In this document: positions 6,938 to 38,904 of the stretch, piece after piece
Layout: each line of letters opens with the position of its first letter
Position numbering within the stretch: the first letter of the stretch is position 1
DNA from: Zoogloea oleivorans
Lineage (GTDB): Bacteria > Pseudomonadota > Gammaproteobacteria > Burkholderiales > Rhodocyclaceae
DNA: 38,904 bases
Assembly: GCF_008107625.1 (NCBI RefSeq)
Contig: NZ_SDKK01000003.1
Location: 154,889-193,792, forward strand
Direction: 5' to 3'
Program-made: the position numbers and the translations under genes
The notes under the pieces: model-generated
Seen by the model: the letters and a program-made list of their open reading frames with translations, nothing else
What the model was told of the DNA's origin: nothing
Database searches by the model: none

Positions 6938-8410
6938 ATGACCGAAGCAGAATTCAACGCCCTGGCCGACCAGGGCTATAACCGCATTCCGGTTACGCTC
7001 GAAACCTTTGCGGATCTCGACACCCCTCTTTCCGTTTACCTGAAGCTGGCCAACGCGCCCAACACCTACCTGCTCGAATCCGTGCAGGGCGGCGAGCGTT
7101 TCGGCCGCTACTCGATCATCGGCCTGGCCGCCTCCACGCGCATCGAAGTGCATGGCCGCTCGGTGCTGCTGCTGACCAACGACCGCCTGGTCGAACGCCG
7201 CGACTATGGCGATCCGCTCAATTACGTCGCCGAGTTCATGGACCGCATCAAGGTGCCGCCGCGCGACCACCTGCCGCGCTTTGCCGGTGGCCTGGTGGGC
7301 TGCTTCGGCTACGACACGGTGCGCTACATCGAGCCGCGCCTGGCCAGGACCGAGAAGAAGGACGAACTCGGCACGCCGGACATCCTGCTGCTGCTGTCCG
7401 AAGAAATCGCCATCGTCGACAACCTGTCCGGCAAGCTCACCCTGGTGGTGTATGCCGAGCCGGAAGTCCCCAACGCCTACCCGCGTGCGGTGCGGCGCCT
7501 GAAGGAGCTGATCGGCAAGCTGCGCGAGCCGGTCAATGTGCCGACTGAGCACCGTGCCGCGCCGGCCGAGGCGGTTTCGAGCTTTGGCGAGGAAGCCTTC
7601 AAGGCTGCCGTGCAGAAGGCCAAGGACTACATCGTCGAGGGCGACATCATGCAGGTGGTGCTCAGCCAGCGCATGAGCAAGCCCTTTGGTGCCAGCCCGT
7701 TGGCCCTGTACCGGGCGATCCGCAGCCTCAATCCCTCGCCCTACATGTTCTATTTCAACTTCGAGGAATTCCAGGTGGTGGGCGCGTCCCCCGAGATCCT
7801 GGTGCGCCTCGAAGACAAGGACGTCACCGTGCGGCCCATCGCCGGCACCCGCAAGCGCGGCGCCACCCACGAGGAAGATCTGGCGCTCGAAAAGGAACTG
7901 CTGGCCGACGAGAAGGAGCGCGCCGAGCACACCCAGCTCCTCGACCTGGGCCGCAACGACTGTGGCCGCGTGGCGCAGACCGGTTCGGTGCGCGTCACCG
8001 AGCAATTTACCGTGGAGCGTTACTCCCACGTGATGCACATCGTCTCCAACGTGGAAGGCAAGCTGAAGGACGACCTCAACGCGCTGGCCGTACTGCGTGC
8101 CACCTTCCCGGCGGGCACGGTGTCCGGCGCGCCCAAGCTGCGGGCGATGGAAATCATCGACGAGCTGGAGCCCACCAAGCGCGGCATCTACGCCGGCTCG
8201 GTGGGCTACATCGGCTTCCATGGCGACATGGACCTGGCCATCGCCATCCGCACCGCTGTTGTGAAGGACGGGCAGATCCACGTGCAGGCCGGCGCCGGCA
8301 TCGTTGCCGACTCCGACCCGCAATCCGAATGGCTTGAAACCCAGAGCAAGGCCCGCGCCATGCTCCGTGCCGCCGAGATCGCCGAAGCCGGACTCGACAC
8401 CGCCCTGTGA
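6938..8410 (+). CDS. trpE: Anthranilate synthase component I
   Basis: The 490-residue large subunit of anthranilate synthase converts chorismate plus ammonia (from TrpG) to anthranilate, the committed step of tryptophan synthesis. The N-terminal part holds the feedback site region with [19 protein letters not shown], near the LLES motif that binds tryptophan in known enzymes. The C-terminal chorismate-binding domain shows [80 protein letters not shown] and [14 protein letters not shown]. The ATG at 6938 has GGAG five bases upstream. It heads a plus-strand cluster trpE-trpG-trpD-trpC, with a 109-nt gap before trpG. Confidence 0.98.
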
Positions 8411-31619: not shown

Positions 31620-31633
31620 CCCCCCCACCAGCC

Positions 31634-31793
31634 CCCTGTGGGTCGGACTTCAGTCCGACAACGCCCCACCACAAGCCCCTGTGGGTCGGACTTCAGTCCG
31701 ACAACGCCCCACCACCAGCCCTTGTGGGTCGGACTTCAGTCCGACAACGCGCGTTCCGCCCGCTGAGTCGGACTGAAGTCCGACCCACAGGGG
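31634..31793. repeat. Cluster of four REP-like palindromes (three direct, one inverted)
   Basis: Three direct copies of a unit with core GTCGGACTTCAGTCCGAC end at 31660, 31703 and 31746, an exact 43-bp period. A fourth, inverted copy spans about 31767-31793. Each core is a hairpin, and the inverted copy can pair with any of the direct ones. The copies differ from the 21102 element mainly in CTGTGGG versus CTGTAGG next to the core. They lie between the lipoprotein gene and the kinase gene. Confidence 0.92.
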
Positions 31794-36076: not shown

Positions 36077-37159
36077 ATGCACGCCTCCTCAAAAGTCCAT
36101 ATCGACGATGTCCGGATCAAGGAGATCAAGGAACTGGCCCCGCCGATCCACATGCTGCGGGAATTTCCCGCCACCCCCAAGGCGGCGGAAACGGCGTTCG
36201 AGGCGCGTGCTGGCATCCACCGCATCCTGTTTGGTGCCGACGACCGTCTGCTGGTGGTGATTGGACCCTGTTCCATCCACGATACAGCCGCGGCCATGGA
36301 ATATGCCCGCCGCCTCAAGGCCGAGGCCGACCGCCTCAAGAACGACCTGCTGGTGGTGATGCGCGTGTATTTCGAGAAGCCCCGCACCACGGTGGGCTGG
36401 AAGGGCCTCATCAACGACCCGCTGATGGACGGCAGCTTCCGCATCAACGAAGGCCTGCGCATCGCCCGCAAGCTGCTGTCGGACGTGAATGAACTCGGTC
36501 TGCCCGCCGGCACCGAATTCCTCGACATGATCACCCCGCAATACATCGCCGACCTGATCTCGTGGGGCGCCATTGGGGCCCGCACCACCGAAAGCCAGGT
36601 GCACCGCGAGCTGGCCTCCGGCCTGTCGAGCCCGGTGGGCTTCAAGAACGGCACCGACGGCAACATCCGCATCGCCGTCGACGCCATCAAGGCCGCCCAG
36701 TCGCCGCACCACTTTTTGTCGGTCACCAAGGCTGGGCACTCGGCCATTGTGAGCACCACCGGCAATGAAGACTGTCACCTCATCCTGCGCGGCGGCAAGG
36801 GCCCCAACTACGACGCGGCCAGCGTCGACGCCGCCAGCAAGGAACTGGCCGCCTCCGGCCTGCAGGGCAAGCTGATGATCGACTTCTCGCACGCCAACAG
36901 CAGCAAGCAGCACAAGCTGCAGGTCAATGTGGCCCACGACGTGGCTGGCCAGATGGCCAACGGCGAAGACCGCATCATTGGCGTGATGGTCGAATCCCAC
37001 CTCAAGGAAGGCCGTCAGGACTTGAAGCCCGGCGTTGAACTGGAATACGGCAAGAGCATCACCGACGCGTGCATCGGCTGGGAAGACAGCCTCACCGTGC
37101 TCGACGTGCTGGCCGAAGCCGTGCGTCAGCGCCGCGTCAAGCGGGCCGCCGGCGAGTAA
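36077..37159 (+). CDS. aroG: 3-deoxy-7-phosphoheptulonate (DAHP) synthase, class I
   Basis: A 360-residue enzyme joining phosphoenolpyruvate and erythrose 4-phosphate, the entry step of the shikimate pathway. It has the AroG/F/H architecture: an N-terminal extension (DVRIKEIKELAPPIHMLREFPATPKAAETAFEARAGIHRIL), then VIGPCSIHDTAAAMEYARRL, MRVYFEKPRTTVGWKGLINDP, GARTTESQVHRELASGLSSPVGFKNGTDG, ILRGGKGPNYDAASV, and MIDFSHANSSKQHKLQ. Residues in the N-terminal part set feedback by Phe, Tyr or Trp in relatives; which one applies here I cannot tell. It provides chorismate for the trpEGDC branch in this window. A TAGAAT at 36035-36040 may be its -10 element. Confidence 0.96.
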   Translation: MHASSKVHIDDVRIKEIKELAPPIHMLREFPATPKAAETAFEARAGIHRILFGADDRLLVVIGPCSIHDTAAAMEYARRLKAEADRLKNDLLVVMRVYFEKPRTTVGWKGLINDPLMDGSFRINEGLRIARKLLSDVNELGLPAGTEFLDMITPQYIADLISWGAIGARTTESQVHRELASGLSSPVGFKNGTDGNIRIAVDAIKAAQSPHHFLSVTKAGHSAIVSTTGNEDCHLILRGGKGPNYDAASVDAASKELAASGLQGKLMIDFSHANSSKQHKLQVNVAHDVAGQMANGEDRIIGVMVESHLKEGRQDLKPGVELEYGKSITDACIGWEDSLTVLDVLAEAVRQRRVKRAAGE

Positions 37160-37191
37160 GGCAACACGCCGCGCAACGCGGCACGACGTAA

Positions 37192-37223
37192 AAATGGGGA
37201 AGCTGACTGCAGCTTCCCCATTT
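37192..37223. terminator. Bidirectional intrinsic terminator between aroG and fpr
   Basis: A perfect 14-bp inverted repeat, 37192-37205 with 37210-37223, has a 4-nt loop (ACTG). The arms contain GGGGAAGCTG and CAGCTTCCCC and are bounded by A- and T-rich ends, so it works as a terminator in both directions between convergent genes. Confidence 0.92.
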
Positions 37224-37243
37224 GCATTTCAGGCGCTGCCCGC

Positions 37244-38020
37244 TTACTTCTCGATAAAGGCGTGCTCGATCACGTAGTCAGCCGGATCACCGATGCGCTT
37301 CGACATGCGGAAGCCGCGTGCGTCCAGCATGGCACGGCTGTCCTTCAGCATCGGCGCACTGCCGCAGATCATCGCGCGGTCCACCGCCGGATCAAGCGGC
37401 GGCAGGCCGATGTCTTCAAAGAGTTTGCCGCTCTCCACCAGATCGGTGAGGCGGCCCTGGTTGCGGAAGGGCTCGCGGGTCACGGTGGGGTAATAGATCA
37501 GCTTCTGCGAAATCGACTCACCGAGGAACTCGTGCTGCGGCAGCTCATGGGTGATGTAGTGCGAATAGGCCAGCTCGCTCACCTGACGCACGCCGTGCAC
37601 CAGAATCACCTTGTCGAAGCGGTCATACACATCCAGGTCGCGGATGATGCTCATGAACGCCGCCATGCCCGTGCCGGTGGAGAACAGATACAGGTGGCGG
37701 CCGGGCAGCAGATCCGACAGCAGCAGCGTGCCGGTGGGTTTACGCGACACCAGTAAGTCATCACCCGGCTTCAAGTGCTGCAGGCGCGAGGTGAGCGGGC
37801 CGTCCTGCACCTTGATGCTGAAGAACTCCAGGCTCTCCTCGTAGTTGGCGCTGGCAATCGAATACGCGCGCATCAGCGGCCGGCCATCCACCTCCAGCCC
37901 GATCATCACAAACTGGCCGTTCTCAAAGCGGATCGACCGATCACGCGTGGTGGTGAAAGAGAAGAGGGTGTCGTTCCAGTGATGAACACTGAGGACTTTT
38001 TCGGTGATGTGGGCGGCCAT
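37244..38020 (-). CDS. fpr: Ferredoxin--NADP+ reductase
   Basis: A 258-residue flavoprotein of the Fpr (bacterial FNR) family, moving electrons between NADPH and ferredoxin or flavodoxin. The FAD-binding motif is RAYSIASANYEE, followed by SIKVQDGPLTSRLQHLKPGD; the NADP site starts at LFSTGTGMAAFMSIIRD, and MICGSAPMLKDSRAML lies near the end. The C-terminus HAFIEK is typical of the subclass. I chose the ATG at 38020 (MAAHITEKV) because it matches the family start; another in-frame ATG at 38053 has GAGGA very close to it and would add 11 residues. It converges on aroG. Confidence 0.94.
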   Translation of the reverse strand: MAAHITEKVLSVHHWNDTLFSFTTTRDRSIRFENGQFVMIGLEVDGRPLMRAYSIASANYEESLEFFSIKVQDGPLTSRLQHLKPGDDLLVSRKPTGTLLLSDLLPGRHLYLFSTGTGMAAFMSIIRDLDVYDRFDKVILVHGVRQVSELAYSHYITHELPQHEFLGESISQKLIYYPTVTREPFRNQGRLTDLVESGKLFEDIGLPPLDPAVDRAMICGSAPMLKDSRAMLDARGFRMSKRIGDPADYVIEHAFIEK

Positions 38021-38145
38021 GGGGAAGAATGTGGCTGACAGAAAGGCCGCCATTATCCTCGTCTCGCCTTGAATTTACAGCGGAAAATTCTTGTCGACGC
38101 CTGATTGAAATCAAGTTGTGGGCTGAAGGTCGTGCTCGCAAGGTT

Positions 38146-38355
38146 CCGGTTGCCATTACGCCCCACCAGATTGGCAATGTGACCGATCAAATTGCCAATC
38201 GGACGCACCAAAGAAGCAATGTGACGGGCCAGATTGCCAATCTGACCGGGCAACTTGTCAATCTGGCCAGTCCGATCACCAATCTGGTGCATCACATTGC
38301 CAATTCGACAGACCAGATTGGCAATCTGTCGCACCCGAATGCCTTCCGAACAAAA
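38146..38355. repeat. Array of 21-bp palindromic repeats
   Basis: Eight head-to-tail units of exactly 21 bp run from 38167 to 38334, with degenerate copies at each end (38146-38166 and from 38335). Positions 1 (C), 9-12 (CAAT) and 15 (G) are the same in all eight. The centre ATTG-S-CAAT is a palindrome; units at 38230 and 38314 hold the perfect 15-mer form CAGATTG-N-CAATCTG. Other arms pair between units, for example 38228-38237 with 38259-38268 (10 bp). Positions 3, 8 and 18-21 vary. Both strands are open and would encode heptads, but the base changes do not favour third codon positions. Function unknown. The region 38054-38145 before it shows no gene. Confidence 0.9.
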
Positions 38356-38384
38356 AAGCCGTTTCATGCCAATGTCACGTTTTA

Positions 38385-38413
38385 TTGACGGTTTTTATAT
38401 GATGTGAAAATAT
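38385..38413 (+). promoter_or_regulatory. Candidate promoter of the 124-residue protein gene
   Basis: TTGACG (38385-38390) and AAATAT (38408-38413) are 17 bases apart in an AT-rich stretch between the repeat array and the gene at 38464. TATGAT also occurs at 38398 but at a poor distance. Untested. Confidence 0.4.
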
Positions 38414-38463
38414 TCTGCCGTGGGCCTCCACATCCGAAACCAACCAACGCCCTTGGAGAAGTC

Positions 38464-38838
38464 ATGGCAAACACACAACGCTCCCGCGTCTCCCCGCAAG
38501 TCCTGCAAGCCGACATCGAAGCCTTCATGGCCCTTACCGCCATCCCCGGCTATGCACCCGCCAACCCCGACTTCGCCTTCAGCAGCATCGCGAAGCTCCA
38601 CGAAAACCTGCAAGCCCTCCTCGCCACCGAATTCCACGCCCAAAACACCCTCGCCGCCGCCCGCGACGCCGCCCAGGCCGCCCAATGGCAATTCCACGAC
38701 GCCATCCTCGGCGTGAAGAACCAGGTGAAAGCCCAGTACGGCGAAAACTCCGACCAGCTTGCCGCGTTGGGCTTGAAGAAGAAGTCCGACAGAAAGGCCC
38801 CGACGAAATCGGGCAAGGCGGCGGCGACGGAGGACTAG
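38464..38838 (+). CDS. Protein of unknown function downstream of the repeat array
   Basis: A 124-residue soluble protein. The N-terminal half is helical (VSPQVLQADIEAFMALTAI, then a segment with YAPANPDFAFSSIAKLHENLQ). An Ala-rich helix follows (NTLAAARDAAQAAQWQFHDAILGVKNQVKAQ), then YGENSDQLAALGLKKKSDRK and a basic Lys-rich tail. The ending (YG-(D/E)-x-S-x-x-L-x-x-LGLKKKS) resembles small proteins I recall from Chlorobi and other phyla, but no function is known to me. The ATG at 38464 has GGAGA upstream; an in-frame ATG at 38404 has no such site. It lies 130 bp downstream of the 21-bp repeat array. No other gene follows before the window ends. Confidence 0.75.
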   Translation: MANTQRSRVSPQVLQADIEAFMALTAIPGYAPANPDFAFSSIAKLHENLQALLATEFHAQNTLAAARDAAQAAQWQFHDAILGVKNQVKAQYGENSDQLAALGLKKKSDRKAPTKSGKAAATED

Positions 38839-38904
38839 GCGAGCGGTTCCCGGTTTGAGCTGTTGGGGCGACGGTGATCGCCCACACACCATGCAAAAGG
38901 CCCA

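Follow-up and report, generated by a model that had tools for sequence, protein, structure and literature searches.

Arrays of 21-bp palindromic units upstream of a small ORFan gene family in Zoogloea: apparently a two-part module not described before

In the genome of Zoogloea oleivorans an array of 21-bp palindromic units stands upstream of a small ORFan gene, and together they look like a two-part module of which the literature searched, at the level of titles and abstracts, gives no description. The module recurs in floc-forming bacteria with its array linked to the gene, keeps a 21-bp period and a tendency towards dyad symmetry, carries units that are specific to each locus, and lies beside variable, often defence-rich DNA. 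The spacing of the units is conserved and their sequence is not. The window referred to below is the whole stretch of DNA analysed, 38,904 nucleotides in length, and the features of interest in it are the following.

37244..38053, minus strand: ferredoxin-NADP reductase-like gene, divergent, flanking the array opposite the ORFan gene; outside the module, given for context
38146..38166, no strand: degenerate first unit, CATT replacing CAAT
38167..38334, no strand: eight canonical 21-bp units, each a 15-bp imperfect palindrome plus a 6-bp linker
38335..38355, no strand: degenerate last unit
38385..38414, plus strand: weak sigma-70-like promoter between array and gene, TTGACG-18-AATATT, 9/12, a quality of match for which chance alone gives about 0.4
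38464..38838, plus strand: small ORFan gene of 124 aa from a family with multiple copies in the genus; it forms the module's downstream half

The window array is genuine. Eight abutting 21-bp units fill 38167-38334 with C1, CAAT at 9-12 and G15 present in 8/8, as the first-pass annotation had described them, and the unit sequence is CAGATTGSCAATCTG. Lag-21 identity over 38146-38355 is 111/189 (0.587), while across 2000 dinucleotide shuffles the highest value for any lag from 10 to 40 averaged 0.324 and never exceeded 0.40; TRF independently found period 21 at 38165-38265. The dyad score is 0.74, and permuting the columns of the units lowers it to 0.48±0.05 (p=0.005, the floor of 200 permutations). 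Two perfect 15-mers had been reported and were located, as CAGATTG-S-CAATCTG, at 38230 and 38314, the claimed pairing of CGACAGA (38306-38312) with TCTGTCG (38325-38331) is exact, and the CACCA/TGGTG pair is present in 38277-38289, which reads CACCAATCTGGTG. A further pair of arms had to be shifted by one base, since 38228-38237 is not complementary to 38259-38268 and the true partner is 38227-38236. The earlier view that the palindromes follow one another at a pitch of two helical turns is supported, and its rejection of a CRISPR array holds, as neighbouring 21-bp units touch, their palindromes parted by 6-bp linkers only, and unique spacers between near-identical repeats are absent. Elsewhere in the window, at 31620-31750, lies a 3-copy 43-bp tandem repeat with the inner palindrome GTCGGACTTCAGTCCGAC, REP-like by eye.

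Such arrays were also found in related genomes, a recurrence on which the first-pass annotation had staked its proposal. The 62 arrays examined have about 5 to 22 units and lie mostly 100-600 bp 5′ of the start codon. The window unit occurs at three places in its own genome, where a whole copy of the array stands at G000:C35 (84%) and a decayed piece at G000:C99, and a DNA search of the genus returned the window array from this genome alone (1/23). The ORFan family gave 63 matches in 15 of the 23 genomes of the genus Zoogloea and none in 37 searched genomes of other genera. Wider matches (72 loci) came from Zoogloea, Candidatus Accumulibacter and bins labelled Nitrosomonas, Acidobacteria, Ignavibacteria and Planctomycetota, labels which may be wrong. 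It is the core pattern together with the analysis of period upstream of the gene family that reaches beyond the DNA search and thereby shows the generality of the arrays; the core pattern also gave one match or a handful in 51 of 397 genomes, and the genomes examined were those with dense matches. Among 297 genomes from the phylum of an Acidobacteria-labelled bin seven matched, mostly weakly and including the bin itself, and the plasmids, phages and viral contigs searched yielded no match. Some arrays stand without the gene, and two of these (G007:C67 and G003:C49) lie between convergent genes. It may be added that the gene-less arrays L118 (G003:C49) and L123 (G015:C96) have a period of 20 bp, not 21.

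Upstream of the gene, lag 21 outscored every other lag between 10 and 40 in 48 of 61 regions, among them those of 45 of the 54 full-length genes, and phased repeats upstream of a small gene are the arrangement looked for in an autoregulator. Downstream of the gene lag 21 came top in 4/62, and in the background, 900-bp tiles from the first 37 kb of the window, in 5/42. The same lag was top at 23 of 28 judgeable loci outside the genus set (12 genomes). Nine of the 54 full-length genes are without a 21-bp signal, the top lag being 20 in two of the nine.

The units of other loci read differently, for instance CTACATTCAATGTAG at G012:C2 and GCACGATCAACGTGC at both G021:C32 and G019:C32. Unit similarity reached 0.586 in 15 orthologue pairs versus 0.362 in 60 same-genome paralogue pairs and 0.373 in 628 other pairs, the column-shuffled baseline being 0.361±0.027. 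Because the units of orthologues are alike and those of same-genome paralogues no more so than by chance, what is conserved is the spacing and not the sequence. A marked exception is a TTGSCAA core found both at the window gene and, with another subfamily of the protein, in G009, G007 and G003. Array distance correlates with protein distance (Spearman 0.237, and 0.186 when close pairs are removed; both p=0.002), although such co-descent would also be expected from simple inheritance. When the body of the ORFan protein is allowed for, its variable tail is no clear guide to the array (partial p=0.057), a result no more than suggestive of array recognition through this tail. Dyad symmetry was significant (p<0.05) in 30 of the 62 arrays, with about 3 expected, and not significant in 32, the orthologues among the 62 being non-independent. 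In 44 of 59 gene-linked arrays C outnumbers G; this strand asymmetry was set aside since the flanks share it.

The first-pass annotation had considered a structured RNA besides a scaffold for protein binding. That the array is transcribed and acts as such an RNA now appears very improbable, despite the strong folding of the window array (z −4.6 and −5.4 on the two strands against dinucleotide shuffles) and an average advantage of the real unit order in 38 arrays whose units were cut without regard to phase (mean z −0.76 and −0.60). Such a cut splits palindromes, however, and cuts in the linkers remove the order effect (mean z −0.16±0.25 and −0.19±0.29 in 24 arrays, 3 and 2 of them below −2; G003:C64, G018:C46 and G000:C14 remain under −2 on at least one strand). 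Of 40 shuffled unit orders of the window array, 39 on the sense strand and all 40 on the antisense strand fold no worse than the native order, so that the long-range pairing is a by-product of palindromic units. Nor did the covariation check lend support: mismatched pairs in 29 dyad-significant arrays comprise 85 G-T and 159 A-C versus 85 and 163 from column composition, hence no G-T excess, and Watson-Crick pairs are in weak excess (1166 versus 1142±11). In addition, the promoter-like site lies 3′ of the array, and no Rfam match attained the gathering score, 37000-38904 giving sub-threshold matches only. Even harder to credit is that the array codes, on either strand, for a heptad-repeat protein. 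This would account for a unit of seven codons, for the ORFs that cross the window array on both strands and for the at least one open sense frame in 52/62 arrays. However, the 33 differences between the window array and G000:C35 fall 13/11/9 at codon positions 1/2/3, without third-position bias, and the explanation of the period by a conserved coding frame, which the first-pass annotation had named as a refutation of its proposal, fails. In-frame stops occur in the G000:C99 copy and in the consensus units of other loci, and viral contigs, phages and plasmids hold no protein relative.

Searches of Pfam, NCBIfam, PHROGs, PADLOC and the PDB turned up no convincing relative of the ORFan family; comparison with PDB sequences gave no relative at E <0.28, and a structure search with Foldseek gave a best E of 5.5 and no known DNA-binding fold. 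A PADLOC scan of 46 members did not mark the ORFan as a known anti-phage defence protein, five models matching one member apiece with a best E of 0.0022. In the AlphaFold model (mean pLDDT 82.6, pTM 0.53) the protein consists of two helices, one short and one long, and a basic tail that is disordered. T-run hairpins, terminator-like by eye, are found 3′ of several gene copies. An intergenic motif, TCGGCCA...CGG, recurs 3′ of many gene copies (L302, L304, L306, L309, L311, L318).

The most plausible, though still tentative, explanation for these observations is that the array consists of phased dimer sites upstream of a promoter, to which a cognate protein, perhaps that encoded by the ORFan gene, would bind cooperatively; the multi-site protein scaffold proposed in the first-pass annotation would thus still be the best reading of the sequences. 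That a homodimeric protein recognises the units as its DNA sites is inferred, as are the binding, the partner and the effect. The array would serve as a cis-element in the order array, promoter, small ORFan gene. A pitch of 21 bp (2 × 10.5) would bring all sites to one face of the DNA, so that dimers could sit next to one another and form a nucleoprotein patch ahead of the promoter, by which expression of the gene would be set. A single genome-wide regulator is excluded, since the palindromes of same-genome paralogues are unrelated and those of orthologues are common to them; as no such regulator can read all arrays, a cognate protein made by the module is the likeliest partner. Each module would then make its own, and the ORFan product, with its long helix and basic tail, would be the simplest candidate. 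A period that is conserved free of sequence and goes with one ORFan family, in bins from several phyla, suggests pairs of protein and DNA that co-evolve. The reading is supported by the upstream-specific lag 21, the dyad excess, the unit similarity limited to orthologues, the array-protein correlation, the promoter-like site 3′ of the array, the lack of an RNA signal, and the predicted helical ORFan with its disordered basic tail. Against it stand the ORFan's lack of a known DNA-binding fold, the failure of its variable tail to foretell the array clearly, the 32/62 arrays without a significant dyad, the 9/54 genes without the period, and the arrays that have a 20-bp spacing or no gene; an operator between convergent genes, as at G007:C67 and G003:C49, makes little sense.

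Two serious rivals must be weighed. An ancestral 21-bp array beside the gene may have behaved as a neutral minisatellite, in which slippage or unequal exchange copies whole units while the sequence drifts. Turnover of this kind yields conserved spacing without conserved sequence and a variable number of units, and would fit the absence of the array at some genes. We consider it somewhat unlikely, for dyad symmetry is kept in 30/62 arrays despite the changing sequence, the 21-bp pitch is maintained across bins of several phyla with few arrays at 20 bp, and the arrays stand upstream of the gene and not downstream. Fixed geometry with free sequence would also suit a recombination or integration site used in the exchange of cargo genes and read, as integron attC is, by the shape of a hairpin and not by its sequence. 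Cores are inverted inside an array (L024, L154), collinearity breaks near the small gene, inserts are flanked by direct duplications, and gene-less copies of an array occur elsewhere. Yet the breaks fall mostly at the 3′ end of the gene, on the far side from the array, no recombinase gene caught the eye beside the modules, and within-unit compensation is weak (about 2 s.d.); such a site seems rather improbable to us.

Related loci are collinear up to near the stop codon of the gene and carry differing genes beyond it; at several loci these are defence genes, Cas9, Gabija and Thoeris among them. The module may act as a regulator of the defence genes, move together with them or mark a site that is permissive. 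One may also speculate, as a long shot, that it is an integrase-free platform for the capture of defence genes, in which the 3′ end of the gene would be the exchange boundary and the ORFan-bound array, fixed in geometry though not in sequence, would form a complex to recruit or align incoming cargo; each paralogue would then be an address of its own, and cargo would be sorted among several islands per genome. In Zoogloea the module offers a handle on defence loci, and since Cas9, Gabija, Thoeris and others sit there, unlabelled genes just behind it are candidates for new defence systems. Unannotated cargo genes with similar N-termini were seen 3′ of the small gene at L308:4701-6947 (Z. ramigera) and L209:2787-3356 (Accumulibacter adjunctus), and are a candidate for a so far unrecognised defence protein. 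Several other observations concern the surroundings of the module. At L282:3849-4143 and 7880-8174 stand two copies (98.3%) of the terminal 295 bp of an enoyl-CoA hydratase-like gene, flanking a module-bearing segment. Y1 (REP-associated) transposase-like genes were recognised by eye near two modules (L287:3569-4102, L297:4052-4585). PEP-CTERM-like tails, also by eye, are present on proteins adjoining arrays in two genomes (L050:3491-3841, L119:1293-2138).

StbA with stbDR of plasmid R388, omega with its heptads, ParR with parC, and KfrA are small DNA-binding proteins that regulate their own genes through iterated sites upstream. The Zoogloea module resembles these in having a small gene with phased repeated sites just upstream. 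It differs in being chromosomal, in occurring several times per genome with a putative site sequence of its own each time, in an ORFan without a known DNA-binding domain and in the defence genes adjoining it. Lrp-type wrapping regulators likewise use 15-bp palindromic sites phased with the helix, but there one regulator reads one consensus, whereas the array consensus here differs from locus to locus. REP/BIME elements are also clustered short extragenic palindromes; according to PMC2817692 they number more than 100 copies in a genome, compared with three places in the present one, and were rejected as an identity for the array, which is moreover strictly tandem at 21 bp and tied to one gene family. 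Finally, PMC10121019 describes integration hotspots of defence islands where different defence systems occupy one conserved locus in related genomes. The loci described here share this variety of defence systems at a conserved locus and are distinguished from those hotspots by their border, a recurring ORFan-plus-array module.
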